A stretch of 34,183 bases of DNA from Acidobacteriota bacterium (GTDB taxonomy: Bacteria > Acidobacteriota > JAAYUB01), in contig JAAYUB010000119.1 of the NCBI GenBank assembly GCA_012517875.1, positions 1 through 34,183 of the forward strand, read 5' to 3'. This document shows, in pieces, positions 8,482 to 28,511 of the stretch (position 1 is the stretch's first letter; each line of letters starts with the position of its first letter). Position numbers and translations under genes: made by a program. Below the pieces are notes generated by a model. It was not told where the DNA came from and did no database searches. It saw only the letters and a program-made list of their open reading frames with translations.

Positions 8482-8526
8482 AACAGATATCCTCGAGCCA
8501 GAATGACGGCCGCCGTCGGCACAGGC

Positions 8527-8562
8527 AAAAAAAAAGTGCTAACCCGGCCGCCGGATTAGCAC
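8527..8562 (-). terminator. Intrinsic terminator of the LysM gene
   Basis: A GC-rich hairpin at 8536-8562 (outer 7-bp stem GTGCTAA/TTAGCAC, inner CCGGC/GCCGG, one mismatch) is followed on the minus strand by nine consecutive T residues (8535-8527). It lies 18 bases past the LysM stop codon and separates that gene from the downstream deaminase operon. Confidence 0.92.
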
Positions 8563-8580
8563 GATCTGAGTCAGGTTGTC

Positions 8581-9846
8581 TTACTGCGGCTGGATGTAAT
8601 TGCCCAGATCCAAGGCTTGGCGGGCATTGATCACCTTGGCCTTGGCGGTGTTCTCGAAGACTTGGATAATGACCACCTCGCCCAAAATGATGCGGGGAAT
8701 CTCCCGCTTGACCGTAGCCGTATGGCTGGCTGACTTGAAGCCGGGCTCCACCTTTTCCTTGTAGCTGTCATACCGGTTTGACGGGTAGAACTCATCCGTC
8801 TGCTTATATTGCCCCTCGACGCGGTACACCGTGCAGATCTGACCGGGCGCGACATTCTGGTTGCGACCCAGGTTCAAGTACACGACATTACCGGAGCCGG
8901 CGACACTCAGGCTGTCTTCGATGTACACGATGTTACCGGTGGCCTTTCCGTTGTCTTCGATAAAGCGCTGTGGTTTGCGTGCCTTGTCCCGTACAAGTTT
9001 ATCGGCTTCCTGGAACGGCACCAGGGCGTCCCCGATGTGCACGGCCCGAGTGGCGAGATCAATCTGCGCGATGGCTTTGTCGTCATGGGCGATGAGCACC
9101 TTCAGCGTGCCCAACTCCAGATAGTAGTATCCCACAAAGGCATTGGTGACCGGATTGTGGATCTCACCGGCAGAGCGCAGAATGCTGAAGCGCTGGCCCG
9201 GGGATACATTCTGCCGCATCCCCTTGTTGATGTAAACGATTTCACCCTCATCAAAATAGCGCTGGATGTTCTCGTCCTCGGCTCCGACAATGAACGTGTC
9301 AAAGGTCATCGGCGTCTGGTTGATGCGTCCCGTGCCGTACAGTTCGTAGTCGGTGGCATAATACGTGTCGATGTCTTTGACTACCAGTTCCAGTGGCTTG
9401 CGCTCGAAGGTCGTGGGCGGCAACTGCTTCTTGAGCGCAACCATGCCTTCAGCCGGCTCTTCGGTCACAACTTCGGATTCAGCGGGAACCTCGGGCTGCT
9501 CCACCAGCTTTGGCTGCTCGATCAGCAGCGGATCGCCCGGATAGATCCAGTGCGGATTGGTGATGTATGTGTTCAGTTCCCAGATCTGGGGCCAGAGGTA
9601 GGGATTGTTCAGGTACTGGCGGGCCAGATCCCACAGGGTATCACCTCGCTGGACCACGTGCACCCTCGCCTCTTGGCCGAACGCCGGCGCTGTGTACGGC
9701 GACCAGTGACCGTCTTGCTGCTTGCTCAGATTTTTGAGCGGTACGCCCTGGGCCGGAACATTGGTTGCGGGTGCCTGTACGGTCTGACTGACCGCCACGG
9801 CAGTCAAAAGAGACAGAAGAAGGACAATTTTAGCTATCTTGCTCAT
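8581..9846 (-). CDS. Secreted LysM-domain envelope protein
   Basis: A 421-residue exported protein with a signal peptide (about residues 1-20, cleavage near AVS-QT). One LysM peptidoglycan-binding domain follows at about 62-110 (VHVVQRGDTLWDLARQYL, then NNPYLWPQIWELN and NPHWIYPGDPLLI). The remaining 300 residues are beta-rich, with two similar segments around NVSPGQRFSILR and NVAPGQICTVYR that may be repeated small barrels. Proteins of this layout are common in envelope biogenesis loci, but the C-terminal function is unknown. The ATG at 9846 has GAGG 5 bases upstream and is preferred over a GTG two codons earlier. It has its own strong terminator and lies downstream of the OmpA lipoprotein gene, also with a terminator, so it is probably transcribed alone. 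Confidence 0.85.
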   Translation of the reverse strand: MSKIAKIVLLLSLLTAVAVSQTVQAPATNVPAQGVPLKNLSKQQDGHWSPYTAPAFGQEARVHVVQRGDTLWDLARQYLNNPYLWPQIWELNTYITNPHWIYPGDPLLIEQPKLVEQPEVPAESEVVTEEPAEGMVALKKQLPPTTFERKPLELVVKDIDTYYATDYELYGTGRINQTPMTFDTFIVGAEDENIQRYFDEGEIVYINKGMRQNVSPGQRFSILRSAGEIHNPVTNAFVGYYYLELGTLKVLIAHDDKAIAQIDLATRAVHIGDALVPFQEADKLVRDKARKPQRFIEDNGKATGNIVYIEDSLSVAGSGNVVYLNLGRNQNVAPGQICTVYRVEGQYKQTDEFYPSNRYDSYKEKVEPGFKSASHTATVKREIPRIILGEVVIIQVFENTAKAKVINARQALDLGNYIQPQ

Positions 9847-9949
9847 GACCACCTCGTAGGCAGTAAGCTAATTCATTGTATTCATTTGATCACTAGTAAT
9901 AGCACGTTAACAAATAACGATTGTTTTTGTCAATACAAAATGTGATAAA

Positions 9950-9977
9950 AGTGTAGCACTTACAAGAAATCTGACAA
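9950..9977 (-). promoter_or_regulatory. Possible promoter of the LysM gene
   Basis: In the AT-rich 237-bp gap upstream of the LysM gene, the minus strand reads TTGTCA (9977-9972), 16 bp, then TACACT (9955-9950). A full TTGACA also occurs closer to the gene (9933-9928) but without a good -10 partner. The leader would be about 100 bases. This is a weak-to-moderate match. Confidence 0.35.
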
Positions 9978-10027
9978 AATAATTTAACCCAGCCTGATTG
10001 CAATCTGATTCAAGAGTAACCCGGTGT

Positions 10028-10061
10028 AAACAAACAAGGCCGGGCGATGCCCGGCCTTGTT
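10028..10061 (-). terminator. Intrinsic terminator of the OmpA lipoprotein gene
   Basis: A 13-bp perfect stem with a three-base loop (10033-10045 paired with 10049-10061) sits 22 bases past the ompA-like stop codon. On the minus strand it is followed by a T-rich TTGTTTAC stretch, and a run of eight T precedes it. The stem itself is very strong. Confidence 0.8.
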
Positions 10062-10083
10062 AACATTTTCAAAAAAAATACAG

Positions 10084-10782
10084 TTAGCGAGCTTCGAGCA
10101 ACTTGATGGTCACGCGCCGGTTCTGCTTGCGCCCTTCGGCGGTCTTGTTGTCGGCCACCGGGTTGGTTTTGCCGAGCCCGACGACGAAGATCCGGTTCAG
10201 ATCCACGCTCTTTTCGCCCACCATGTAACGCACGACACTCTGAACACGCTTCTCGCTGAGGCCGTAGTTGTATTCTTCTGATCCGATGCCGTCGGTGTAA
10301 CCTTCAAGGGTCATCACCATGTTCTTGTTGCCGGCGAACAGGCGGGCCGCCTCATCAAGCGTCGCCTTGGCTTCAGCGGTCAACGTGGACTTGTTGAAGT
10401 CGAAGTGGACGTTCTTGGTGTCAATGACCGCATAGTTGTTGCGGGCATCAAAGCGGGCACGCAGCTCGGTGACACCCGTGTTGGCCTGGGTGGCAAGCCC
10501 CTTGGCATCGGTGCCGATCCGCTTCGCTTCTTCAGCCTTGGCATCAGCCGTGGCAGCCTTGTCGGACACCTGCTCGATGCGCGAGCTCAGCTGCTTGTTC
10601 AGGCTGGAGAGCTCATTGATCTGGCCGTTGAGCTTGGACACTTCCTGATCCATCTTCTGGTTGACGCGTGTTTCCGACGACTGGACCTCTTCCCGGACGA
10701 ACTTCTTGGTCGCGCAGCCGGAGAACAGAACCAGGGCCAGGATGGACAGCACCACCAGGATCAGCATAGTGTTTCTCTTCAT
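10084..10782 (-). CDS. OmpA/Pal-type lipoprotein with coiled-coil stalk
   Basis: A 232-residue outer-membrane lipoprotein expected to tether the membrane to peptidoglycan. Residues 1-22 are a lipoprotein signal ending in the lipobox LFSGC (Cys23). Residues about 28-105 form a heptad-like, Lpp-style coiled coil rich in Lys, Glu, Ala and Gln. Residues about 120-232 form an OmpA domain with HFDFNKSTL, Asp164 in GYTDGIG, and Arg179 in NYGLSEKRV, the pair that binds diaminopimelate, then NRRVTI. I chose the ATG at 10782, preceded by GGAGG at 7 bases and yielding a proper signal peptide, over an upstream in-frame start. The coiled coil combines Lpp and Pal features, so it is not assigned to either name. 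It has its own promoter and terminator. Confidence 0.92.
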   Translation of the reverse strand: MKRNTMLILVVLSILALVLFSGCATKKFVREEVQSSETRVNQKMDQEVSKLNGQINELSSLNKQLSSRIEQVSDKAATADAKAEEAKRIGTDAKGLATQANTGVTELRARFDARNNYAVIDTKNVHFDFNKSTLTAEAKATLDEAARLFAGNKNMVMTLEGYTDGIGSEEYNYGLSEKRVQSVVRYMVGEKSVDLNRIFVVGLGKTNPVADNKTAEGRKQNRRVTIKLLEAR

Positions 10783-10857
10783 GATCGAACCTCCAAAAGC
10801 ATTGAAGTGGATAATACCTGTATTCAATAATTATTTGGGACTTGCTTTTTGATGCAA

Positions 10858-10887
10858 ATTATGTCGAACCGTGCCTATCATAGTCAA
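10858..10887 (-). promoter_or_regulatory. Predicted sigma-70 promoter of the OmpA lipoprotein gene
   Basis: On the minus strand TTGACT (10887-10882) is followed after 18 bp by CATAAT (10863-10858), each five of six to consensus. The predicted leader is about 70 bases. The truB start is only 36 bp away on the other strand, in the same AT-rich island; I could not pick a convincing truB promoter. Confidence 0.55.
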
Positions 10888-10923
10888 TAAAATTCTAAAA
10901 GACAACAGTTTTATGGGAATTTT

Positions 10924-11829
10924 ATGACCCAATCACGAAGCAGTGGAGTTCTGATCATCGACAAACCGGCGGGGATGACCTCGCATGATGTCGTCGCCCG
11001 ACTCCGTCGGTGCTTGCCCGACATCAAGGTCGGTCACGGCGGGACCTTGGACCCGATGGCCACCGGGGTCCTGCCCGTGCTGCTGCACCGGGCCACGCGA
11101 CTCGCCCAATTTCTTCTGCATGCCGACAAGGAATACGGCGGGATTATCCGCTTTGGCTGGGCCACCGACACCCATGACCGTGAAGGCGAGCCGCTGACGG
11201 CTCCCCGGCCGGTGGATTTTAAACGTAACGACCTAGACGGGTGGATCGGGCGTTTTGTCGGGGACATCGTCCAACTCCCCCCGGCCTATTCGGCGGTCAA
11301 GTGGCGGGGCCGTCCGCTGTATCGATACGCCCGAAGCGGCCAGACAGCACCTCGTCCGGAGCGAACGGTGCGCGTGGAGGCATTGGATGTTCTCGTCTGG
11401 AATCCCCCCGATTTGCAGTTCAGGCTGGTCTGCTCCGGGGGGACATACGTCAGGTCCATTGCGCATGAGCTCGGAGAAATGGCGGGGTGCGGCGCGCATC
11501 TCCACACGTTGTGCCGTCGGCGACTGGGCCCGTTTTCGCTGGCGCACGCCGCCGCGCTCGCAGATCTCCTTGCCGCGCCAAATCAACTCGCTGACCGAGT
11601 GCTCCCCCCGGAAAGCCTGGTGCAGCACCTGCCCCCGTGGCCGTGTTCGTCGGATACCGCCGACCGCATCCGAAACGGTGTGGAAATAGCCCTGCCCGAA
11701 AACGATCCACATCCGGATGGGATCCGGTTTCGCCTGATGGACGCAAGGGGTGCGTTAGTCGCCGTGGGCCGGGTGCGCACTCTGGAGGAGGGCCGGAAAG
11801 TGCTTCGACCCGAAATCGTGCTCGCTTAA
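10924..11829 (+). CDS. truB: tRNA pseudouridine-55 synthase TruB
   Basis: TruB converts U55 of the tRNA T-loop to pseudouridine. The 301-residue length is typical. The catalytic motif GHGGTLDPMATGVLP places the nucleophilic Asp at residue 43, preceded by the N-terminal IIDKPAGMTSHDVV and followed by KEYGG, PPAYSAVKWRGRPLYRYAR and CSGGTYVRSIAHELG, all family hallmarks. A C-terminal extension after about residue 225 corresponds to a small PUA-like tail. The ATG at 10924 has only a weak GGGA site. It stands alone here, away from the usual infB-rbfA-rpsO neighbours. Its TAA stop overlaps the convergent M20 peptidase stop in a shared TTAA. Confidence 0.96.
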   Translation: MTQSRSSGVLIIDKPAGMTSHDVVARLRRCLPDIKVGHGGTLDPMATGVLPVLLHRATRLAQFLLHADKEYGGIIRFGWATDTHDREGEPLTAPRPVDFKRNDLDGWIGRFVGDIVQLPPAYSAVKWRGRPLYRYARSGQTAPRPERTVRVEALDVLVWNPPDLQFRLVCSGGTYVRSIAHELGEMAGCGAHLHTLCRRRLGPFSLAHAAALADLLAAPNQLADRVLPPESLVQHLPPWPCSSDTADRIRNGVEIALPENDPHPDGIRFRLMDARGALVAVGRVRTLEEGRKVLRPEIVLA

Positions 11830-13217
11830 ATGCCCGATCGGTTGGGGCACCCGAACAAATCGAGCACCCGTCCGATGAATTTGATCCCCTGGATGAAGTC
11901 GTGCACCCGGATGTTCTCGTTCGGGGCATGGATGTGCGACCCTTGATGGGCAACACCAAACGAGAGCACCGGCAACCGGTTCGGCGCGCACACATGGTAC
12001 ATCGGCCCGCTGGCCGCCATCATCGGCAGGAATGATGGTTCGGAGTGGAAGGTCTCAAGACTGGCCTGGCGAATTCGAGCCAGGTGATCCGCTGACGGCT
12101 GGTGCCGATAACCGGGTATCGCACATTTGAGCAGCAGCTCGACGTCGCCAAAGCCGAGGGTGTCCAGATGGGTCCGCAACAGGTTCACCACCAGCTCGGG
12201 TGTCAGATCCGGTACCAGGCGCAGGTCTACGTTCGCCCAAGCCTCCCGCGGCATGATCGTCTTGGTGCCGCCCTTCGTGTACCCCGCTCGAATGCCACAG
12301 ATATTGAGCGACGGATGAAAAAACAGCCGCTCCATGAGTTCACGCGGATCGTTGGAGTGGAGGAACTCCTTGATCCCAAAAAGATCGCGGAAATAATCCG
12401 GATCGAAATCCGACGGCACCAGGCGGTCCCGGTCCTCGGCCGAGACAGGACGCACGTGGGTGTCCAGGCCGTCGATGGTGATAGTGCCGCGGGCATCGCG
12501 CAGTGAAGTCAGAGCATAGAGCAGCCGCCACACCGGGCTGTCGACGATCGCCGCCATCGCGGAGTGGATGTCGCTCCGCAGCGTGGAACACCGCAACTCG
12601 ATGTAGGCCATTCCTTTCAGCCCAAAACTGATGTAGGGATGGCCGCTGTTGTCCAGCACGCCCGACCCCCAGAAGCACAGATCAGCCTGAAACAGCTCCT
12701 TCTCAGTCTGGGCCAGCCGTTCCATATTGTAGCTGCCTACTTCCTCTTCGCCTTCAAAGAGGAACTTGACCCGGAACGGCAGGTCACCAATCACTTTACG
12801 GTAGGTTTCCACGGCGGCCAGCGCGGCAGACAGGCTGCCCTTGTTGTCAGCGGCACCCCGAGCATAAACATAGCCGTCATGCACCTCCGCGGAGAAGGGA
12901 CCGAAGTCCCACTCGTTCAGCGGTTCCACGGGCTGCACGTCGTAGTGGTTGTAAAACAGGATGGTGGGCGGTCCGGACCCGACCTCGCCGTAAAGATACG
13001 GCTTGCTGTCTCCGCAGGTGATTTGCCGGACCTGGCATCCCATCCGGAGCATGATCTGTTCGATCAGCGTCGCGGTCGAAGTCATTCCGATCGTGTTGGT
13101 GATGATCGACGGCTCCCGCAGCAGCGATTGCAGTTCCTGGACATAACCGGCGCTATGGTCTTCGACGTACCGGTAGAACTGCTGCATGTGTTTGTCGGCT
13201 TCACGCTTGCTGTTCAT
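11826..13217 (-). CDS. M20-family metallopeptidase/dipeptidase, one metal-ligand position apparently Gly
   Basis: A 463-residue dizinc peptidase-fold protein of the M20 family (carnosinase/ArgE/DapE relatives), likely a cytosolic dipeptidase or amide hydrolase. Visible ligands are His91 and Asp93 (HYDVQP), Asp124 (RGAADNKG), the Glu cluster 157-159 (FEGEEEVGS) and a C-terminal His in GSHIHAPNEN. At the remaining ligand position, where classical dipeptidases have SD and the closest subgroup has W-E, the sequence is W183-G184-S-G. A GAG-to-GGG change would explain it. Without that ligand the second zinc may bind poorly. The insertion with DIHSAM is the usual dimerisation lid. The ATG at 13217 has AAGGAGAT 8 bases upstream. 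It is 48 bp downstream of the DUF362 gene and probably cotranscribed. Confidence 0.9.
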   Translation of the reverse strand: MNSKREADKHMQQFYRYVEDHSAGYVQELQSLLREPSIITNTIGMTSTATLIEQIMLRMGCQVRQITCGDSKPYLYGEVGSGPPTILFYNHYDVQPVEPLNEWDFGPFSAEVHDGYVYARGAADNKGSLSAALAAVETYRKVIGDLPFRVKFLFEGEEEVGSYNMERLAQTEKELFQADLCFWGSGVLDNSGHPYISFGLKGMAYIELRCSTLRSDIHSAMAAIVDSPVWRLLYALTSLRDARGTITIDGLDTHVRPVSAEDRDRLVPSDFDPDYFRDLFGIKEFLHSNDPRELMERLFFHPSLNICGIRAGYTKGGTKTIMPREAWANVDLRLVPDLTPELVVNLLRTHLDTLGFGDVELLLKCAIPGYRHQPSADHLARIRQASLETFHSEPSFLPMMAASGPMYHVCAPNRLPVLSFGVAHQGSHIHAPNENIRVHDFIQGIKFIGRVLDLFGCPNRSGI

Positions 13218-13265
13218 GAATTCTGATCTCCTTAGGCGGCGGATCGCTCCACCGGCCACATCCGA

Positions 13266-14369
13266 TCACATGTCGACCAGCCGATATCGGCGGCTGCCGA
13301 GACCGATCTCCTCGGCATATTCCAACTGGCGTCGCCAGTTGACTTCGGGACACAGTGCGACCAATTTGTCCTCCCCTGCCGGACGGCGGCCGATCTGACT
13401 GGCTGCAAACGACTCCTCGGCGTTGAACAGGTCAACCGACGCTTGATCGATCGCGACAGGATCCCGGGAGGCCAGGATGCCGATGTCCGGAACGATGGGA
13501 TCGTCGTTGTAGGGGAAGCAGTCGCAGTCCGGCGTGATGTCAAGGAGGAAATTGACAAACAGACACCGCTCACTGAGCCGGTGCAACACGCCGTAGGTGG
13601 TTTCCGCGATTTTCTCACCCAGGATCTCCGGTTTCTCAGTCCAGAGGATCTTCAAGGCTTCCTCGGGACAGGCCGGGATGCATTCCGCACACCCAACGCA
13701 CCGCTCATACATGAAGTGGGCTTTTCCGCTCTCGATATGGATCACCCCCTGCTGGCAGACCGTGGCGCAGCGGGCGCAGCCGGTGCAAGCGGCCTGGTCT
13801 GCGAACTCGGGGCGGACGGTGCCGCTGTGCATCAGCTGCTTCATGGAGCGAGACCCCAGCCCCATCCCGATGTTCTTCAGGGTGCCGCCAAACGCGCAGG
13901 CCAGGTGCCCCTTGAAATGGGAAAGACTCACCAGCGCGTCCATCTCACCCACGACGCTGCCCACCTTCACCTGACGAAAATGCTTCAGGTTCACATCGGT
14001 CTCGAGATAACTTTCCGACCGCAGGCCATCCGCCATGATGATGGGTGCGCCCACCTGAGTCAGTCCGAAGCCGTGCTCCTCGGCGAGGATGAGATGGTCC
14101 ACCGAGTTGGTGCGGTGTCCGTGGTACAGGGTGTTGGAATCCGTGAGGAAGGGCTTGGCACCCCGCGCCTTGAGTGTGTCCACTACCCGGCGGACAAACG
14201 GCGGTCGTAAAAACGCGGTATTACCGCGCTCGCCGAAACTCAGCTTGATCCCCACCAGGTCGCGTGGCCGAACGAACTCGAGCCCCGCCGCTTCCAACAA
14301 TTCCTCCAGTCGTTCCAGCAAGCTGCGCTTACCCGTCAACCGCGACCGAATGAAGCAGACGTCCTTCAT
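13266..14369 (-). CDS. DUF362 protein with two [4Fe-4S] ferredoxin clusters
   Basis: A 367-residue iron-sulfur protein. The N-terminal and C-terminal parts form a DUF362 domain (GIKLSFGERGNTAFLRP, FLTDSNTLYHG, HFKGHLACAFGGTLKNIGMG, ILASRDPVAIDQASVDLF). An 8Fe ferredoxin unit is inserted at about 190-240, with Cys195/198/201/205 and Cys224/227/230/234 in CxxCxxCxxxC order. Such proteins occur in anaerobes and facultative bacteria; their reaction is not settled, so I infer only electron transfer or a redox-linked activity. The ATG at 14369 has AAGGGG 5 bases upstream. It heads a two-gene minus-strand unit with the M20 peptidase and diverges from pyk. Confidence 0.9.
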   Translation of the reverse strand: MKDVCFIRSRLTGKRSLLERLEELLEAAGLEFVRPRDLVGIKLSFGERGNTAFLRPPFVRRVVDTLKARGAKPFLTDSNTLYHGHRTNSVDHLILAEEHGFGLTQVGAPIIMADGLRSESYLETDVNLKHFRQVKVGSVVGEMDALVSLSHFKGHLACAFGGTLKNIGMGLGSRSMKQLMHSGTVRPEFADQAACTGCARCATVCQQGVIHIESGKAHFMYERCVGCAECIPACPEEALKILWTEKPEILGEKIAETTYGVLHRLSERCLFVNFLLDITPDCDCFPYNDDPIVPDIGILASRDPVAIDQASVDLFNAEESFAASQIGRRPAGEDKLVALCPEVNWRRQLEYAEEIGLGSRRYRLVDM

Positions 14370-19963: not shown

Positions 19964-20179
19964 ACCGACCGGCGGCGACCGGCCACGCCGGCTCGACGTC
20001 CAGCCCGTCAGCCGGACGGGCAGCCGGGTTAGGACCCGCCGTGAATGGATCAATCTGCGGGAAATACCGGCTCCGGCACTCGGCTCGACGAGGCCATCGC
20101 CGGTGATGAGCATGTCACCCGATTGCAAACGGCCAGCGGCGGGACGGCGCGGACAACACATGCAGCGTCGGGGGTTTTC

Positions 20180-20956
20180 ATGAAACGAGCACTGCTCACC
20201 TGCGGACTTGGCGTCGCCCTGGTTTGCGCAGTCTGGGCAACAGATTTCTGGCTGCAGAAACCCTACACCCAGTGGCAGGTGAATGAGGCGCGCCAGATCC
20301 TCACCCGCTCGCCCTGGACCTACGTTTATCAGTGGGGATACATCGGCAGCATTCAACAGAATATTGCGGGCACGGGCGATCCAGAACGCGAATTCGTTGT
20401 CATCATCCGGGCCCACCTGTTTTCGGCTCGAGCGGTGCGCCAAGCCTACGTCGCCCTGATCGCCCAAGGCGACCAGAATCGACTTGCTCGCTACCGGGAT
20501 ATCGCGACGCGGGACTACCCCGACGAGATCGTCGTGTCGCTCACCGTCGACTCCAAGCCCAAGGGTGTTTCGGCTGTTTTTGATGTCGAGCGCGCACTGC
20601 ACAACCTCAGTCTGCCCGAACTGCGTTCGAACACCTTCCTGGCCACCAACTCCGGCAAGAAAGTGTATATCAAGGATTATCTCGCCCCGACACCGGACGG
20701 CTCAGGGGCGAAGTTCATTTTCCCCCGCTATGCCGACGACGGGGTGCCCCTGGTCACGCGCGACGACACGACCCTGCGTTTTCAAACGACCAAGATCAAG
20801 ATCAAGAGTCTGAGCGACCTGGAAGAGGATGAAAACCGGCCCTCCGAAAATGTGGCCTATGTCCTCAGCACCCGCACCCTCATTCAGAACGAGATGGAGA
20901 TCGACGCCACGTTCATGATCGCCAAGCTCCTCTTGAACAACCGTCTGGATTTCTGA
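20180..20956 (+). CDS. Secreted protein of unknown function, QKPYTQW family
   Basis: A 258-residue protein with a signal peptide (residues about 1-20). The mature N-terminus reads DFWLQKPYTQWQVNEARQILTRSPW, a pattern I associate with conserved hypothetical proteins common in Acidobacteriota, though I know no function for them. The rest is predicted soluble, with no cysteines and several charged strands near the C-terminus (TTKIKIKSL). The ATG at 20180 is chosen because it begins the signal peptide; an in-frame start at 20045 would add a 45-residue low-complexity leader. It lies 216 bp after the ABC ATPase. That gap carries a 7-bp GC stem at 20003-20021 with no T tract and nothing else I can name. 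Confidence 0.7.
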   Translation: MKRALLTCGLGVALVCAVWATDFWLQKPYTQWQVNEARQILTRSPWTYVYQWGYIGSIQQNIAGTGDPEREFVVIIRAHLFSARAVRQAYVALIAQGDQNRLARYRDIATRDYPDEIVVSLTVDSKPKGVSAVFDVERALHNLSLPELRSNTFLATNSGKKVYIKDYLAPTPDGSGAKFIFPRYADDGVPLVTRDDTTLRFQTTKIKIKSLSDLEEDENRPSENVAYVLSTRTLIQNEMEIDATFMIAKLLLNNRLDF

Positions 20957-21005: not shown

Positions 21006-21080
21006 GAGCGCAGCGCACCGCCAACCTATGCCGGCACCCCTGCCGCAAGCCGGCGTATGCCGGCGACACGTGGAGGCCCC

Positions 21081-21779
21081 ATGCCCGAACGTCCCCGGAT
21101 CCTGCTGGTGGAGGACGAAAAGTCCATTGCCGACATCCTGCTCTACGCCCTGGACACCGACGGGTTCAAAACCAGCTGGGTGAGCACGGGCGGTGAAGCC
21201 CTCGCGGCGTTGGAGCGCGACCCGATTGATTTGGTGATTGTGGACATCGGACTGCCTGATCTGAGCGGTTTTGAGCTGTTCGCGGAAATCCGCCGGCAGC
21301 ATCCGATTCCGGTCATCTTTCTCACCGCGCGCGGAAGCGAGATCGACCGCGTCTCCGGCCTGGAGATGGGTGCGGACGACTACGTGGTCAAACCCTTCAG
21401 CCCGCGGGAGGTGGCAGCACGGGTGCGGGCGGTTCTCCGGCGGGGACAGCGGCCGGCCGCCGGGCTGTCAGCCAAGCCCCGGCAACCATTCCCGTTCGCC
21501 GTGGACACCCAGCGGCGCACGATCAGCTACTTCGGCCGGACCCTGGAGCTGTCGCGGTACGAATATCGCATCCTGGAAAAACTCATTGAGCATCCCTGCT
21601 GGGTGTTCTCCCGCGAACGGCTGATGGAACTTGTCTGGGAATGCCCGGAGATGAGCCTTGACCGCACGGTCGACACCCATATCAAAACCTTGCGCGCCAA
21701 ACTCCGTGAGGTGCGTCCCGAGCCCGACCCCATCGTGACGCACCGGGGTGTGGGGTACGCATTGCGGGAGGACTGGTGA
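21081..21779 (+). CDS. creB: CreB-like response regulator (OmpR/PhoB family)
   Basis: A 232-residue response regulator. The receiver domain has the acidic pair Glu11-Asp12 (VEDE), phospho-acceptor Asp55 (VIVDIGLPDLSGFEL), Thr in FLTARG and Lys in VVKPFSPREV. A winged-helix DNA-binding domain follows, with the CreB-like ending DRTVDTHIKTLRAKLREV and THRGVGYALRE. Similarity to E. coli CreB is visible along the whole length (the LPDLSGFEL, GADDYVVKPFSPREV and DTHIKTLRAKLR stretches). The ATG at 21081 has GGAGG 5 bases upstream and is preferred to an upstream ATG at 21057. It overlaps creC by four bases (GTGA). Two CreB-type boxes lie upstream of the VIT gene, its probable target. Confidence 0.92.
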   Translation: MPERPRILLVEDEKSIADILLYALDTDGFKTSWVSTGGEALAALERDPIDLVIVDIGLPDLSGFELFAEIRRQHPIPVIFLTARGSEIDRVSGLEMGADDYVVKPFSPREVAARVRAVLRRGQRPAAGLSAKPRQPFPFAVDTQRRTISYFGRTLELSRYEYRILEKLIEHPCWVFSRERLMELVWECPEMSLDRTVDTHIKTLRAKLREVRPEPDPIVTHRGVGYALREDW

Positions 21780-23218
21780 GCATTCGCCTGCGGATCTTCC
21801 TCGGGTTTTGCCTTGCGATCATCGCCGGCTTCCTGGCTCTAAGTCTATGGATCACGGAGGACATCCGTCTTCAACCATTGAAATCCACGGAAGAAGCCAT
21901 GGTGGATACGGCCAACATCCTGGCGGCTGGACTAGAGGACCGCCTCCGGGAGGAGCGTCCCGACATCATGGATCTTCGCGCCGCCATGGATCGGGCGCTC
22001 CGGCGAAAGCTTGACGCGCGCTTGTATCAACTGGAGAAGCGGGCAGTGACGACTCGGGTGTACGTCACCGACGCGCGCGGCATCGTGATCTACGACTCTC
22101 ACGGCGGGATCGATGAAGGCAAGGACTACTCCCGCTGGAACGATGTCTACCTGACCTTGCGCGGCCGATACGGCGCCCGGGCCACACGCGGAGACGCCAA
22201 GGACTTCTATTCCACCGTGCTCTACGTGGCGGCACCGGTTCACGCCGGCGGCCGGCTGGCCGGGGTGCTGACCGTGGCCAAGCCCGTGAACAGCGTCAAG
22301 GTGTTCATCACCGAGATCACCCGCAGGATCGCCCTGGCGGCGGTCATCTCCTTTCTGGCTGCAGCGGTATTGAGCTTCGTTGTCTCCACCTGGATCACCC
22401 GCCCACTCGACCGCCTGGCCGGGTACGCCCAGTCCGTCCGCGACGGTCGGCGCGCCGGTCTGCCTCCGCTGGGCAGCAGTGAAATCCGCACTCTGGGTCA
22501 GGCGTTCGAGCAGATGCGCGATGCCCTCGAAGGCAAACAATACGTGGAACAGTACGTGCAAACACTGACCCACGAGATCAAGGCACCCCTGTCCTCCATC
22601 CGGGGTGCCGCCGAACTTCTCCAGGAGGAACCGCCGCCGGAGGCCCGCCGCCGCTTCGCCGCCACCACCGCCGACGCCGGCACCCGGATCCAGCGGTTGG
22701 TGGACAGGTTGTTGGATCTGACCGCGCTGGAGAGCCGCAAGGGTCTGGTGCAGGTGGAATCCGTCAACCTGGGTGAGTTGGTGGATGACGTTGCCGCGGC
22801 GGTTGACACCCAGCTCCGTGCCAAGGGAATCGCCCTGAGCCTTTCACTGGCTCCGAATCTGACTGTACCAGGCGAGCGCTTTCTGCTTCGCAGCGCACTG
22901 GTCAACCTGATCCAGAACGCCATCGACTTCACACCGGTCGGGGGCGCCATTCAGGTTGCGGCGGCCGCGGAGACCGGGCTGGCGGTGATTTCGGTTCACG
23001 ACAGTGGCCCGGGCATCCCGGCGTATGCATTGGATCGCGTGTTCGAACGCTTCTACTCGCTTCCCCGTCCAGACACGGGGGCCAAGAGCACCGGCCTGGG
23101 ATTGGCGCTGGTGCGCGAGGCTGTGGCGCTTCATGGTGGAAGCGTCGAACTGGCCAATCACCCGAGCGGAGGCACCCTGGCGACCCTCCGTCTGCCACTG
23201 GCGCCCCCTGCCAGATGA
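21776..23218 (+). CDS. creC: CreC-like sensor histidine kinase
   Basis: A 480-residue membrane kinase. Membrane segments at about 8-25 and 186-207 bracket a periplasmic sensor that keeps the CreC signature DYSRWNDVYLTLRGRYGARATRGD and STVLYVAAPV. A HAMP linker, the H-box TLTHEIKAPLSSIRGAAE (His266), N-box NLIQNAIDF, and ATP-lid motifs DSGPGIP and GLGLALVREA follow. The FERFYSLPRP and AIDFTP stretches also match E. coli CreC. In enterobacteria CreC responds to carbon metabolism or envelope stress, but the ligand here is unknown. The GTG start at 21776 overlaps the creB stop, with GGGAGG upstream. CreD, the usual third partner, is absent; the VIT-exosortase operon occupies its place. Confidence 0.93.
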   Translation: MSIRLRIFLGFCLAIIAGFLALSLWITEDIRLQPLKSTEEAMVDTANILAAGLEDRLREERPDIMDLRAAMDRALRRKLDARLYQLEKRAVTTRVYVTDARGIVIYDSHGGIDEGKDYSRWNDVYLTLRGRYGARATRGDAKDFYSTVLYVAAPVHAGGRLAGVLTVAKPVNSVKVFITEITRRIALAAVISFLAAAVLSFVVSTWITRPLDRLAGYAQSVRDGRRAGLPPLGSSEIRTLGQAFEQMRDALEGKQYVEQYVQTLTHEIKAPLSSIRGAAELLQEEPPPEARRRFAATTADAGTRIQRLVDRLLDLTALESRKGLVQVESVNLGELVDDVAAAVDTQLRAKGIALSLSLAPNLTVPGERFLLRSALVNLIQNAIDFTPVGGAIQVAAAAETGLAVISVHDSGPGIPAYALDRVFERFYSLPRPDTGAKSTGLGLALVREAVALHGGSVELANHPSGGTLATLRLPLAPPAR

Positions 23219-23310
23219 TTCAGACCCACCATCCGCTCCAGAGGAGCTCTTAACCAACGGTCCGGCGGCTTTGGTTGAACAGCGCCCGACCACTCCAACT
23301 GCACGTCTGC

Positions 23311-23326
23311 TTCACCGAAAATTCAC
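23311..23326 (+). promoter_or_regulatory. CreB-binding box 1, exact TTCAC-N6-TTCAC
   Basis: TTCAC (23311-23315), six bases, TTCAC (23322-23326). This is an exact match to the CreB direct-repeat tag defined in E. coli and Aeromonas, sitting 93 bp after creC ends and about 85 bp before the VIT start codon. It is the only exact copy I found in the window. Confidence 0.8.
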
Positions 23327-23343
23327 CACAATCACCCGACCAA

Positions 23344-23359
23344 TTCAAACTTCGTTCAC
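23344..23359 (+). promoter_or_regulatory. CreB-binding box 2, TTCAA-N6-TTCAC
   Basis: TTCAA (23344-23348), six bases, TTCAC (23355-23359): one mismatch to the CreB tag. It is offset from box 1 by exactly 33 bp, so all four half-sites fall on one 11-bp register and one face of the helix. No convincing -10 hexamer is visible downstream, consistent with an activator-dependent promoter between here and the start at 23412. Confidence 0.65.
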
Positions 23360-23411
23360 TCCACGGCGGGAGACTCGAACCAGAAACAAATCCATCCGTC
23401 GGGAGGTCGCC

Positions 23412-25400
23412 ATGAACATCCGTTTGCTACTCGGGGCTTTGCTCCTCATCGGGCTGGTGGCCGGCTTCGGCTCGGCCCAGAGCGACGACGATTTGGGCCG
23501 GAGCCTGTCACCGTTTTTCTATGTCCAGAGCGACGATCCGTTCACCGACCGGCTGCCGCTCAAATCTACGGTGGCGGATGTGCGCATCGCCGGTGTCATC
23601 GCCGATGTCACCATCACCCAGGTCTACCGGAACGAAGGGACGCGCGCCCTGGAGGCGATCTACATTTTCCCCGGCTCCATTCGCGCGGCGGTGTACGCCA
23701 TGACCATGATCATCGGCGAGCGCACGATGGTCGCCCGAATCCGGGAGCGGCAGCAGGCCCGCCAGGAATACGAAACCGCGAAAGCGAGCGGCCGGAGCGC
23801 GTCACTGCTCGAGCAGCTCCGGCCCAATGTCTTCCGGATGAATGTGGCCAACATTCTGCCCGGTGACGAAATCCGTGTGGTTCTTTCATACACCGAACTG
23901 CTCGTTCCCGCTGACGGCGTGTATGAGTTTGTATACCCCGCCGTGGTCGGGCCGCGCTATGTGAACCAGCCGTCGTCCGAAACACGGCCGGCCGAACACT
24001 GGACGGCCAGCCCCTATCTTCGCTCGAGTGAACCGCCGTCCTACGCCTTCGGCATAAAGGTGCGCCTGGACGCGGGTCTCCCGATCCAGGACGTCCGGTG
24101 CGCCAGCCACGAGGTCGCCATCGACTACCAGGAGAAGGACCGGGTCGTCATCGAACTGGCACCCCGCGAACGGACCGGTGGCAACCGGTCGTTCATCCTG
24201 AAATACCGCCTGGCCGGCGACAGGATCCACTCCGGGTTGCTGCTGGCCCGCGGGCCGGAAGAGAATTTCTTCCTCCTGACGCTGCAGCCGCCCCGGCGGA
24301 TTACGCCGGCGATCATCGTCCCGCGTGAATATGTCTTTGTGTTGGATGTGTCGGGGTCCATGCACGGCTTCCCTCTCCACACCGCCAAATCGCTCCTGCG
24401 GCAATTGCTGCGCGGCCTACGCCCGTCGGACCGCTTCAATGTCCTCCTGTTCGCGGGCGGGTCCCGGCTCATGGCGGAGCAATCCGTCACCGCCAACACG
24501 GACAATCTGGCCGTCGCCATGGAACTCATCGACGAACAAACCGGCGGCGGCGGCACCGAGCTCGTGCCCGCGCTGCGGCGGGCGATGGCCCTGCCGGCGA
24601 ACGAGGGGTTTTCCCGCAGCATTGTCGTGGTCACCGACGGCTACGTGAACGTGGAAACAGAGGTGTTCCGCTTGGTTCGAAACAATCTTCACGAAGCCAA
24701 CGTGTATGCGTTCGGCATCGGCAGCGAGATCAACCGCTGGCTGATCGAGAGCGTGGCCCGCGCGGGCATGGGCGAGCCGTTCGCGGTCACCCGGCCGGAA
24801 GAAGCCGCCGCCATCAGCGCCCGGTTCAGCGAGTACGTCCAGTCACCGGTCCTGACTCGGGTGGCGCTCGAATTTGCAGGATTCGACGCCTACGATGTGG
24901 AGCCTGTTCGGGTGCCCGACCTGTTGGCCGAACGGCCGGTGACCGTGTTCGGCAAGTGGCGGGGCGACGCCGCCGGAGTGATCCGGATGACCGGCCTGGC
25001 GGCGGACCGTCCGTTCGAGTCGGCGCTGGCTGTGGAACGCTTCAAGACCGAGACGTCGCTACCCGCGCTGCGCAACCTGTGGGCACGCCACCGAATCGCC
25101 CAGCTGGGGGACGAATATACTCTGCAACCCACTGACCCGGTACGGGAGGCGATCACCGGCCTTGGCCTGCGCTACGCACTGCTGACGCCGTTCACCTCAT
25201 TTGTGGCCGTGGACGAAGTCATCCGGAGGAAAGACGGCGATCTTCAACAGGTCAAACAGCCACTGCCTCTACCCGAAAGCGTGGCCGACACGGCTGTCGG
25301 CAACTACGTGCCCACGACACCCGAACCGGAAACCTGGTCGTTGATTCTGCTGGCGCTGGGTGCGGTGGGCTGGATCATGTTGCGGCGGTGGTTGTCATGA
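23412..25400 (+). CDS. Secreted VIT + VWA domain protein with PEP-CTERM-like sorting tail (probable exosortase substrate)
   Basis: A 662-residue surface protein. A signal peptide (1-22) is followed by a VIT (vault/inter-alpha-trypsin) domain at about 32-165, with KSTVADVRIAGVIADVTITQVY and the GERTMVARIRERQQARQEYE helix. A VWA domain at about 305-475 carries the MIDAS motif DVSGSM (312-317), then TGGGGTEL and VVTDG. The C-terminus has the three parts of an exosortase signal: P637-E-P-E-T-W642, a hydrophobic helix at about 643-656 (LILLALGAVGWIML), and a basic end RRWLS. The ATG at 23412 has GGGAGG 5 bases upstream. The exosortase gene overlaps its stop (ATGA), which strongly suggests enzyme and client. 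The function is probably adhesion or ligand binding; the ligand is unknown. Confidence 0.93.
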   Translation: MNIRLLLGALLLIGLVAGFGSAQSDDDLGRSLSPFFYVQSDDPFTDRLPLKSTVADVRIAGVIADVTITQVYRNEGTRALEAIYIFPGSIRAAVYAMTMIIGERTMVARIRERQQARQEYETAKASGRSASLLEQLRPNVFRMNVANILPGDEIRVVLSYTELLVPADGVYEFVYPAVVGPRYVNQPSSETRPAEHWTASPYLRSSEPPSYAFGIKVRLDAGLPIQDVRCASHEVAIDYQEKDRVVIELAPRERTGGNRSFILKYRLAGDRIHSGLLLARGPEENFFLLTLQPPRRITPAIIVPREYVFVLDVSGSMHGFPLHTAKSLLRQLLRGLRPSDRFNVLLFAGGSRLMAEQSVTANTDNLAVAMELIDEQTGGGGTELVPALRRAMALPANEGFSRSIVVVTDGYVNVETEVFRLVRNNLHEANVYAFGIGSEINRWLIESVARAGMGEPFAVTRPEEAAAISARFSEYVQSPVLTRVALEFAGFDAYDVEPVRVPDLLAERPVTVFGKWRGDAAGVIRMTGLAADRPFESALAVERFKTETSLPALRNLWARHRIAQLGDEYTLQPTDPVREAITGLGLRYALLTPFTSFVAVDEVIRRKDGDLQQVKQPLPLPESVADTAVGNYVPTTPEPETWSLILLALGAVGWIMLRRWLS

Positions 25401-26200
25401 GACTCCGCGCGACTCATCCCCTGGCCCTGCTCGTCGGATTGGCCGCCGCCACCTGGCCCGTGTGGCGGTGGTACGCGTTGCGACTGGGGGACGGCTCCGA
25501 CGAGCAGTGGGGGCTGTTGGCGCTGGGTGCGGTGATGGCGCTGGCGCTGAGGCGGCGATCGGCGGGGCCGCCTCCCGCCTCGCTGTTGCCGGTCCTGACC
25601 ATGCTGTTGTCTGTGTATGCCTTGTGCCTCGGGTGGGCGCCGCCCTTGGTGCGGGCAGTCCCGGCCGTGCTGGCTCTGGGCGTTTTAGCCAGCGCCACCT
25701 GTTTTGACCGGCTGTTTCACCCGGGCGTGGCCGGCTTGCTGCTCCTGGCCCTGCCGGTGGGTGCATCCATGCAGTACTGCCTGGGCTATCCGCTCAGACT
25801 GGCGGCCACCGCCATCGCCGCACCGTTGATCCGGCTCGCGGGTTTTGCCGTCGAAGCCCATGGTGTTAGCCTGAACTGGCTGGGGGAGACGGTGCTGCTG
25901 GACGCCCCATGCAGCGGTGTGCGAATGCTCTGGACCGGTTTGTTCATGGCCAGCTTCCTGGCGGTCTGGCTGGGGTTCGGCCTCTGGCGCACGCTGGGCT
26001 CACTTGTCGGTGCCGCCGGTGCCGTGGTTCTGGCAAATGGGATCCGGAACGCCGTGTTGTTCTTCCGCGAGAGTGCCATCGTGCCGATGCCGGACTGGGC
26101 ACATGAAGGCATCGGCCTGGGAGTGTTCGCTGCAGCGGCGGGCGCGGTACTGCTGCTGATGCATCTACTGGATCGGAGGGCGCCATGCTCCGCCGCGTGA
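25397..26200 (+). CDS. Exosortase (Xrt/EpsH family)
   Basis: A 267-residue polytopic membrane protein with about seven or eight hydrophobic segments, of the exosortase/archaeosortase family, which cleaves C-terminal sorting signals at the outer face of the inner membrane. The three catalytic residues are present: Cys172 in LLDAPCSGVRMLW, Arg217 in NGIRNAVLFF and His236 in HEGIGLGVF. The segment LPVGASMQYCLGYPLRL is also characteristic. I cannot assign a numbered subfamily by eye. The ATG at 25397 overlaps the VIT stop codon; a GTG three codons earlier is less likely. The only PEP-CTERM-like client visible in the window is the gene immediately upstream. It is followed by an overlapping EpsI-like gene. 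Confidence 0.93.
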   Translation: MRLRATHPLALLVGLAAATWPVWRWYALRLGDGSDEQWGLLALGAVMALALRRRSAGPPPASLLPVLTMLLSVYALCLGWAPPLVRAVPAVLALGVLASATCFDRLFHPGVAGLLLLALPVGASMQYCLGYPLRLAATAIAAPLIRLAGFAVEAHGVSLNWLGETVLLDAPCSGVRMLWTGLFMASFLAVWLGFGLWRTLGSLVGAAGAVVLANGIRNAVLFFRESAIVPMPDWAHEGIGLGVFAAAAGAVLLLMHLLDRRAPCSAA

Positions 26201-26694
26201 CCTTCTGGGTGGCGTGCCTCGTCGTCGCCGGACTTCCTGCTGTGGCGCCGATGGGCAACCGGACTCCCCGCCCTGCGGCGTTCCCCGGCTGGCCGGCGAC
26301 CTTCGAGGGCTGCCCGCTGGTTCGGGTCCCGCTGACCCAATTCGACCGCTCGATTGGTGCCAACTTCCCGGGCCGGATCGGCCGGTTTCGCCTCAACGGA
26401 CGGGTGGTGCTGTTACGCTGGCTGGCCGAGCCATCGCGTGGATTGCATCCGGCGGCGGACTGTTTCCGCGGTTCGGGGTATCAGGTCCGTCCGCTGCCTG
26501 TCTGGGCGGCACCCGGCGGTTCACGGTGGGGGTGTTTGCTGGCGGTACGCGGCTCCAAACGGCTGCAGATCCGTGAGCGGATCATCGGCACCGGAGGTGG
26601 ATCGTGGACTGACGTTTCCAGCTGGTACTGGGCGGCGCTGCTGGGCAGCAGCCGGGGTCCCTGGTGGGCCGTGACGGTGGTCGAGCCGGCATGA
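26185..26694 (+). CDS. Small exported protein, EpsI-like exosortase partner (tentative)
   Basis: A 169-residue protein with an N-terminal signal or anchor (residues 1-22) and a periplasmic domain. The central motif RWLAEPSRGLHPAADCFRGSGY puts a Pro-Ala and a Cys in an arrangement like that of EpsI-family proteins encoded next to exosortases. Overall similarity is low, so this is a contextual call. It overlaps the exosortase gene by 16 bp and has GGAGG 5 bases before its ATG at 26185, so it is translated from the same transcript. It ends the operon; the next 290 bp contain no plus-strand gene and no plus-strand terminator I can identify. It may help present or process the VIT client, or may itself be an uncharacterised accessory factor. 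Confidence 0.6.
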   Translation: MLRRVTFWVACLVVAGLPAVAPMGNRTPRPAAFPGWPATFEGCPLVRVPLTQFDRSIGANFPGRIGRFRLNGRVVLLRWLAEPSRGLHPAADCFRGSGYQVRPLPVWAAPGGSRWGCLLAVRGSKRLQIRERIIGTGGGSWTDVSSWYWAALLGSSRGPWWAVTVVEPA

Positions 26695-26984: not shown

Positions 26985-28511
26985 TCAGGTATGAAGAATT
27001 TCTTTCAGGCAGGCCTTGATGCCATTGCAGGGAATTGGTAACCAAGCGGGCCGATTGTTGATTTCATAATCCAGCTCGTAAACTGCTTTTTCCAGCTTGA
27101 GCACGGCCAGAAATTCGGATAAGCCGCCGTCTTCAATCCAGCCCATTTCCGCGAAATAGGTCTCCCGGAAGACCTGTTCCACCAACCGGCTCCATCCCGC
27201 CAGTCGGCATTCCAGGGCTCCAAAAGCTTCCTGCGACAGGGCATGCCGCTCCTCCCATTCGAAGAGGGCGGCGTACATGGCGTAGTGGAAAGAACGGAGC
27301 AGGCCGGCCACGTCCTTGAGCGGACTGTATTTGGCGAACCGTTGCGCTGACGCTTTCAGAGGCTCGCCCTCAAAGTCCATGACGAAGCAATCGTTCCCCA
27401 CCAGTAAAACTTGTCCCAGGTGGAAATCGCCGTGAACCCGGCACTTGACCCATCCCGCAGGTTGGAGTCCGGTCAGTCTGCTGAAGGCGGCCAGGATCTG
27501 CCGGCGCATTTCCGGAAGCCTTTCATAAAAATCGCGTGTGGCTGGGTGTGATCCAGGCTCACCGGACGCGATTTTGTCAAGGATGGCGGCCGCCCCGGCG
27601 GTCATTGTGCTGCACCAGCCAGCCAGATCCGCCGGTGTGATCGGCTCTGGCGCGAACGCCGCCTCCAGCCCCTCCGCAGACAAGGTGCGATGCATCGTCG
27701 CCAGAACCCTCGCCAGACGGCGCACCCGATCCAGATAACCGGAAGCATCTTCAAGCGGCGGCTCCGTGACGATTCCCGGTTGGGTCTCCGTCAGCAGATG
27801 GAGCCATTGGGATAGAAACAGCAGGGTACCATGCCAAAGATCGCCCTGATTTTCCACGAACCGACGGGCGATGACTAGGGTGTATTCTCGGCCGCCGACA
27901 TCCCGGTAGCTGAGCGCCCCCTCCAGAGGCGGCAGGTTCTGGAACGTGCCGGCGGCGGCAAAAAAACGGCTCATCTCCAATTCGGGTGACTGGCCGGCGG
28001 GCAACCGGCGGATGAATTTACAAACCACGTCGGCCTTGACCAGAATCAGCGAATTGGTTGAATTCTGCGCCAGCGAATGAACCTGCCGCCATAGCGGCAA
28101 CGGGAACGATTCAAAGTGGAACGTGCCGCGTCCGCCCGCTAGTGTGCGCCCCTCGCTCATGAGCCGGATCATCATTGCGTGCAACGCCGGTTCATCCAGT
28201 GCCTCGCGCACCGTCCAGCCTGCTCCCACCGCAAACGTGGATCCAGGCCCCATCTTTCCGGTCGGTTCCAGACAGAGCGGGAGTAGGTACAGCTCAGGGG
28301 TGCCGTCGCCGGCGGCCACCTCCACTAGGGAGATTGACAGGCGGCGATCTCCTGGAGGCAGCAACGGGGACAGATCCAGCACGTCGACCAGTCGGATCGA
28401 ACGCACCGATTCTGCTTTGGCCTGGAACCAGCGGGCCGCGCGGAACCACTCCGCCGGCAAGGCGGCCACGGCAGTGGCCCAGGCAGGAACCGGTCGGGTG
28501 GTTTTGTTCAT
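26985..28511 (-). CDS. mak: Maltokinase (Mak/Pep2 family)
   Basis: A 508-residue kinase that phosphorylates maltose to maltose-1-phosphate, feeding GlgE-dependent alpha-glucan synthesis. The aminoglycoside-phosphotransferase-like fold shows the catalytic loop RVHGDFHLGQVLL (His360, Asp362), the metal motif FVMDFEGEP (Asp379) and the P-loop-side Lys165 (LVKADVVCKFIRR). The maltokinase-specific segments KYSPLKDVAGLLRSFHYA and the C-terminal LEKAVYELDYEINNRPAWLPIPCNGI are both present. It is a stand-alone enzyme rather than fused to trehalose synthase. The ATG at 28511 has GGGAGG 7 bases upstream. It diverges from glgM, whose product makes the same sugar phosphate from ADP-glucose. Neither GlgE nor TreS is encoded in the window. 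Confidence 0.88.
   Translation of the reverse strand: MNKTTRPVPAWATAVAALPAEWFRAARWFQAKAESVRSIRLVDVLDLSPLLPPGDRRLSISLVEVAAGDGTPELYLLPLCLEPTGKMGPGSTFAVGAGWTVREALDEPALHAMMIRLMSEGRTLAGGRGTFHFESFPLPLWRQVHSLAQNSTNSLILVKADVVCKFIRRLPAGQSPELEMSRFFAAAGTFQNLPPLEGALSYRDVGGREYTLVIARRFVENQGDLWHGTLLFLSQWLHLLTETQPGIVTEPPLEDASGYLDRVRRLARVLATMHRTLSAEGLEAAFAPEPITPADLAGWCSTMTAGAAAILDKIASGEPGSHPATRDFYERLPEMRRQILAAFSRLTGLQPAGWVKCRVHGDFHLGQVLLVGNDCFVMDFEGEPLKASAQRFAKYSPLKDVAGLLRSFHYAMYAALFEWEERHALSQEAFGALECRLAGWSRLVEQVFRETYFAEMGWIEDGGLSEFLAVLKLEKAVYELDYEINNRPAWLPIPCNGIKACLKEILHT

Follow-up and report, generated by a model that had tools for sequence, protein, structure and literature searches.

A probable CreBC-regulated exosortase operon in the place of creD in an Acidobacteriota genome

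The DNA analysed here, referred to as the window, is the whole stretch of 34,183 nucleotides formed by positions 1 to 34,183 of contig JAAYUB010000119.1 (C119 in our numbering, where L, G and C mark loci, genomes and contigs) of the Acidobacteriota bacterium assembly GCA_012517875.1. The host genome has 4.02 Mb, with 95.9% completeness and 3.7% contamination. The window carries the two-component genes creB and creC, a gap of 193 bp and then three genes, for a client protein with VIT and VWA domains, an exosortase and a small exported protein (Table 1). The overlaps are 4 nt between creB and creC, 13 nt between client and exosortase and 16 nt between exosortase and small protein. Gene calls and Pfam and NCBIfam scans bear out a first-pass annotation of this DNA, which had described the creB/creC overlap, the three overlapping genes, their domains and a PEPETW tail on the client. 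Both congeners found (L064 and L065, Acidobacteriota metagenome-assembled genomes, MAGs) have all five genes, with the flanking genes in identical order.

Table 1. Positions of the five genes and of the putative regulatory array in the window.
Feature	Position	Strand	Evidence and remarks
creB, OmpR-family response regulator	21057..21779	+	NCBIfam CreB NF008296, 314.5 bits (cut-off 273); alternative ATG at 21081
creC, sensor histidine kinase	21776..23218	+	NCBIfam CreC NF008312, 566.4 bits (cut-off 356)
CreB-box array in the creC-client gap	23300..23359	+	TTCAC-type units at 23300, 23311, 23322, 23344 and 23355; 11-bp steps
Client, secreted-type VIT+VWA protein with PEP-CTERM tail	23412..25400	+	Pfam VIT, VWA_3 and PEP-CTERM
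Exosortase, nearest XrtQ	25388..26200	+	PF09721, 81.7 bits (cut-off 25.7); GTG start at 25388
Small exported protein, probable reduced EpsI (DUF3485) domain	26185..26694	+	hydrophobic N-terminus

In terms of the regulator, the CreC of the window is the only match at E <= 1e-80 in its genome. A 15-residue stretch of CreB, DRTVDTHIKTLRAKL, is identical between the window and E. coli, and is taken for the recognition-helix region. The scans of the client started at 23409, one codon before the ATG, and matched VIT (E 3.3e-34) and VWA in Pfam. Its PEP-CTERM match (PF07589), at 25314-25388 and with the motif PEPETW, reaches 25.1 bits against a cut-off of 20.7.

The catalytic residues of the exosortase had been given as Cys172, Arg217 and His236. 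The residues stand and the numbering does not: counted from the GTG they are C175, R220 and H239, and they are invariant in all 64 aligned relatives. The nearest named exosortase is XrtQ (NF012182), where the window protein falls short of the cut-off (163.1 bits, cut-off 270). It is also under the cut-offs of XrtT (43.1 bits, cut-off 250) and XrtN (40.9 bits, cut-off 200).

We looked for relatives in the contigs of GTDB species genomes with two peptide patterns taken from an alignment of four exosortases. The search, which was not exhaustive, gave 66 loci, or 67 places with the window. They span Acidobacteriota, Verrucomicrobiota, Pseudomonadota, Myxococcota, Bdellovibrionota, Armatimonadota, Planctomycetota, Melainabacteria and others. 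Two genome pairs are duplicates with the same contig places (G297 with G002, G298 with G001). Clients were labelled with our own hidden Markov model and a tail rule, giving 29 soluble VIT/VWA clients (window included), 27 longer ones (“other type”) and 11 unlabelled. Pfam VIT was found in all six non-soluble-type clients scanned (five of the other type and the unlabelled L097), and two other-type clients scanned with NCBIfam have TIGR04477 matches under the cut-off. By the tail rule, checked in part by Pfam, the exosortase neighbour has a PEP- or PES-type tail in 60 of the 67 loci. The seven loci with no tail either have no upstream contig (L075, L080, L083, L099, L109) or are frame-broken (L116, L119).

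Five of the 14 relatives scanned pass the XrtQ cut-off (L114, L123, L124, L125 and L129; 348 to 377 bits). All five are Burkholderiales and have the soluble VIT client and the small-protein domain, and four adjoin creBC. The other nine score 92 to 194 bits, like the window. With XrtQ, NCBIfam already has a name for this type of enzyme, which is therefore not new; the literature titles retrieved for XrtQ, XrtT or exosortase Q were unrelated, none being about exosortases. In an exosortase tree of 65 rows, which omits the two frame-broken loci and L020, a duplicate of L072, the 29 soluble-VIT rows are all placed within a single group of 33, on a branch that is not starred (support 80/89). The other four members of this group are three unlabelled loci and one with a client of the longer type.

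The small-protein domain is present in 66 of the 67 loci, fused to the exosortase C-terminus in 32 and separate in 34; the only locus where it is missing, L086, is cut by the contig edge. Across 46 sequences the residues G63, R78, H88, C93, G98, E131 and W149 are invariant. An H..P..C....G-like stretch is also found in eight of nine C-terminal regions of other exosortases, five of the nine matching DUF3485 in Pfam. When the small protein was compared with these nine regions in hhalign, the stretches aligned with P 1.2e-4 and a probability of only 54.7. Among the 46 small proteins a single one matches DUF3485 in Pfam, weakly (E 0.019), and the Pfam scans of the window and its relatives gave no confident family for the small protein. 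In AlphaFold2, the small protein (predicted local distance difference test, pLDDT, 91.3) and one DUF3485 region (pLDDT 75.6) were modelled with their core strands and helices in the same order; the DUF3485 model has an additional short strand and a last helix. Sequence and model together suggest that the small protein is probably a reduced EpsI partner. Foldseek returned nothing at E <= 0.001 for the small-protein model and VIA-align gave Z of at most 6.2 (DcrB, PsbP and Mog1 rows), so no function is drawn from the fold.

As for the link to creBC, both genes adjoin the module, by strict scores, in 15 of the 29 soluble-VIT loci and in none of the 27 other-type loci. The linked loci comprise 3 Acidobacteriota, 6 Verrucomicrobiota, 1 Myxococcota, 1 Bdellovibrionota and 4 Burkholderiales, with creBC upstream on the same strand in 13 and divergent in two (L067, L123). 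Three of the 14 unlinked loci have less than 0.8 kb of upstream sequence, and 15 of the 26 loci with at least 3.4 kb is therefore the fairer figure. The first-pass annotation had held that creBC linkage not conserved in relatives would mark the association as incidental, and the linkage turned out to be kept in these loci. A CreC match at E <= 1e-80 is found exactly once in each of the 29 soluble-VIT genomes, linked or unlinked. Five of the 11 other-type genomes searched have such a match, followed in all five by creD. In L111, L122 and L128 the other-type VIT-exosortase module adjoins a two-component pair whose scores do not make it CreBC; in two Sphingomonas among these the pair lies directly after the small protein.

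In the window, the three-gene operon lies where creD would be expected. A search with E. coli CreD at E <= 1e-8 found no match in the window or the 66 relatives. CreC was found in at least 13 of 297 listed genomes, with up to five candidates scored per genome. In 6 of the 10 other Acidobacteriota CreC loci fetched, creD follows creC directly; the remaining four are a pair of VIT protein and exosortase K (L160), two loci without an E. coli-type CreD match (L161, L162) and one cut by its contig (L163). These results agree with the earlier proposal that creD is replaced by a display operon, as does the position of the CreB box, before creD in E. coli and before the client here. The own genome has, on another contig (C167), a divergent CreD-family protein with 35.3 bits, above the Pfam cut-off.

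The CreB box, TTCAC-N6-TTCAC, lies upstream of creD and is described as critical for the binding of activated CreB/BlrA, with BlrA induction depending on it (PMC4689548, PMC3660660). The window has this exact E. coli-type cre/blr tag at 23311-23326, 101 bp from the start of the box to the ATG of the client. In the surrounding array, the units at 23300 and 23344 carry one mismatch each, and the 11-bp step at 23333 has no unit. The part of each client promoter that we scanned began 700 bp and ended 60 bp ahead of the VIT domain. An exact box was found in 18 of the 29 soluble-VIT promoters, and one within a single mismatch in 25. For the linked loci the counts are 10 and 13 of 15, and for the unlinked ones 8 and 12 of 14, including L093, which has only 34 bp of promoter and was kept in the total of 29. 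The box in loci with unlinked creBC fits the expectation of control in trans.

Several controls place these counts in context. Letter-shuffled promoters (200 sets) gave 0.005 exact boxes and 0.455 within one mismatch per set. The rest of the soluble-VIT loci, 474,522 bp, has no exact box, and none of the promoters of 31 other VIT genes in Acidobacteriota-phylum genomes has a box within one mismatch. Among 28 other-type promoters (L020 and L072 being the same place), one has an exact box and four have one within a mismatch. In terms of spacing, exact TTCAC repeats occur 22 times as N6 and 16 times as N17, with any other spacing from N0 to N20 seen at most once; N6 and N17 both fit one 11-bp step. 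As for creD itself, an exact box lies directly after creC in E. coli K-12 and in three of six Acidobacteriota creBCD loci, and at the creD of L211. In two Verrucomicrobium loci (L206, L208) an exact box is located upstream of an unlinked creB, which suggests creB autoregulation.

A CreC tree of 45 rows separates 14 rows from 31 with support 100/99. The smaller side holds E. coli, the six creD-linked Acidobacteriota, the five other-type genomes, L211 and L163; creD adjoins 13 of these, and L163 is contig-cut. The larger side holds all 15 linked and 13 of the 14 unlinked soluble-VIT rows, plus L160, L161 and L162, the neighbour of the last being entered as “unknown”, with no E. coli CreD match there. 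Within this branch, L160 (G091, C4:500-18500) has at 8164-13538 a VIT protein with a PEPELW tail, exosortase K (XrtK, 100.1 bits, cut-off 55), creB and creC in a row. This arrangement reads as a second solution, with CreBC beside a VIT client that has a different exosortase. In G136, a relative of G091, the VIT gene (L219) and creBC (L161) are each cut at contig ends.

These results bear on whether the neighbourhood could be incidental, with creBC unrelated to the exosortase. In favour of this, 14 of the 29 soluble-VIT loci are unlinked to creBC, and two-component genes are common. However, a CreB box before the client in linked and unlinked loci alike, and a separate CreC branch, are not expected by chance. 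On the linkage counts, the CreC tree and the boxes we rejected this explanation, which we consider very improbable.

Some observations nevertheless weigh against CreBC control of the module. None of the five creD loci of other-type genomes has an exact box, and the exact box is for this reason a strict and imperfect yardstick. A sample of 298 kb of the 4.02 Mb own genome has 2 exact boxes against 0.20 expected by base composition, with about 2.75 expected by chance genome-wide, and one of the two lies within an open reading frame (ORF; C4:3570) and was taken as chance. An exact box also precedes an other-type VIT client (L091:7413), in a Burkholderiales genome with creBCD of the creD-linked branch. 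In G275 (L162), which has a module-branch CreC, the exact box stands before a hydrophobic ORF that is not a VIT protein. The scanned VIT promoter of L160, also with a module-branch CreC, has no box better than two mismatches, and we rejected the box as an explanation for every creBC-linked VIT locus.

The CreC tree has its own exceptions, which count on the same side. G320 (L093/L211) is the only soluble-VIT genome that has the module together with a creD-linked CreC of the other branch. In G316 (L195) creD is found about 1 kb after a module-branch creC; on contig C45, after 2440, a frame of 309 codons that ends in a PEP-type tail of its own lies between this creC and creD. The CreC sequences of L094 and L163 are partial and many rows are MAGs. 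The tree sample has no CreC of module-less Verrucomicrobiota, and the branch result leans on this sample.

Next, we asked how many clients the enzyme may have. The own genome has one exosortase match and one PEP-CTERM match, the latter count still being one at E up to 1, and the genomes of both congeners likewise have one of each. The first-pass annotation had named many PEP-CTERM proteins elsewhere in the genome as evidence against its reading, and these are absent from the proteome scan. Its one-client exosortase holds for this genome and not for every other. Among the 15 creBC-linked genomes, seven contain just one exosortase. The PEP-CTERM matches number two or fewer in 14 of the 15 genomes, and 15 in G307. 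In G003, from another genus of the same family, a VIT protein with 59% identity is found (L056), with another C-terminal region in place of the PEP tail. Searches of this genome for exosortase, PEP-CTERM and CreC gave nothing at the thresholds applied, and the 11.2-kb contig that carries the VIT gene has no CreB box with one mismatch or fewer.

One could accept that CreBC controls the operon and still hold that the exosortase is not private, and also serves others in genomes with many PEP-CTERM proteins and, in the own genome, tails missed by Pfam. PF07589 is silent at E <= 0.001 in several genomes with a plain PEPETW client (e.g. L114, L123), and hence undercounts, and unlinked Verrucomicrobiota bearing the module have up to 20 PEP-CTERM matches. 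On the contrary, genomes with at least 10 PEP-CTERM matches each have at least two exosortase matches, and a PEP-type client adjoins the exosortase in the 60 loci noted above. With the single exosortase and single PEP-CTERM match of the own genome, we regard a shared enzyme as unlikely.

Exosortases paired with VIT-domain clients include XrtN, with TIGR04477, and XrtK, with TIGR04286. The window differs from the XrtN system in its low XrtN score and in a client without a TIGR04477 match in the NCBIfam scan. The proteobacterial dedicated sortase system (TIGR03784, TIGR03787 and TIGR03788) includes a two-component pair. Like the window, it has a VIT/VWA target beside a private enzyme, but it uses a sortase and an LPXTG tail (PMC3237569), where the window has an exosortase and PEP-CTERM. 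The window CreB is under the cut-off of TIGR03787 (129.3 bits, cut-off 335.7), and the client is under that of TIGR03788, the client model of that system and its own best NCBIfam model (408.3 bits, cut-off 551.65). The VIT/VWA family also has GlyGly-CTERM and LPXTG versions, and in Verrucomicrobium spinosum a PEP-CTERM-tailed VIT/VWA protein is described with an exosortase as sorting enzyme (PMC3237569). This protein has the family and tail type of the window client; the section of PMC3237569 that describes it gives no neighbourhood, accessory protein or regulator.

In terms of regulation, E. coli creABCD (L130) has the same regulator family and the box at the same place after creC; the difference is creD there and the client, exosortase and small protein operon here. 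PrsK/PrsR with EpsH is a described case in which two-component regulation and an exosortase system go together; there a sigma-54-interacting regulator serves many PEP-CTERM genes (PMC1569441), whereas the window has CreBC with one client operon. The names XrtQ, XrtT, XrtN and XrtK, PEP-tailed VIT proteins and PrsK/PrsR with EpsH are already known. Among the titles and abstract openings listed in searches of the open literature, none linked CreBC to any exosortase, and the searches aimed most directly at this pairing gave no papers. New here, as far as this literature goes, are the probable link of CreBC to an exosortase module and the CreB-box array before the client.

Taking together the gene order, the domains, the catalytic residues, the tail, the conserved CreB box and the separate CreC branch, we consider it likely that the locus encodes a dedicated exosortase system under CreBC regulation, with its operon standing in the place of creD. 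The first-pass annotation had proposed such a module under a CreBC-type sensor, and its reading gains support from the absence of both kinds of counter-evidence that it had named. In this system, CreC would sense an envelope signal and phosphorylate CreB. CreB would then bind the TTCAC array at 23300-23359 and turn on the operon, so that its three proteins are produced jointly. The client would be exported and held in the inner membrane by its tail of PEPETW, helix and basic residues. There the neighbouring exosortase, partnered by the EpsI-like small protein, may cut this tail, and the cut client would pass to the cell surface or outside. CreBC responds to cell-wall damage in Pseudomonas, where loss of penicillin-binding protein 4 is reported to induce creD (PMC2654508), and in E. 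coli, where colicin M is reported to do so (PMC3599342). By analogy with CreBC in these two organisms, the signal in the lineage of the window may be cell-wall damage.

A different fate of the client would be retention, either at the inner membrane or within the periplasm, with feedback on CreC, which would make the module a sensor add-on and not a display system. Client and sensor are co-distributed and adjoin in 15 of the 29 loci, and VIT and VWA are binding domains. However, the complete exosortase, with its catalytic residues in all 64 relatives, and the PEP-CTERM tail point to processing, and we find the add-on reading quite unlikely.

For the CreBC-regulated dedicated system, a wider proposal is that the separate CreC lineage is a private regulator of exosortase-processed VIT/VWA proteins across several phyla, an envelope-damage display arm that would act through the array of CreB boxes, also where the genes are unlinked; we give this an even chance. 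The roles and timing of exosortase clients are mostly unknown, and here one client and one enzyme come with a likely switch. The binding site of this switch is known from work on E. coli and Aeromonas and is conserved enough for testing in named relatives, such as Caenimonas soli, Ramlibacter ginsenosidimutans, Pelagicoccus and Verrucomicrobium. CreBC, itself little understood, gains a probable target beyond creD. Furthermore, more than one kind of private sorting enzyme is found paired with VIT/VWA proteins, and the pairing seen here and the same DNA switch site recur in other bacterial phyla.

Finally, two further ORFs flank the module. Upstream of creB, at 20177-20956, lies an ORF that both congeners also have; its N-terminus is hydrophobic and Pfam gives no match for it. 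A hit to a Shiga toxin subunit (E 0.0082, 15.2 bits, cut-off 715) was discarded as noise. Downstream, at 26985-28511 on the minus strand, there is a stand-alone maltokinase-type ORF, with a TreS_Cterm match of 317 bits, under the cut-off of 375.05.

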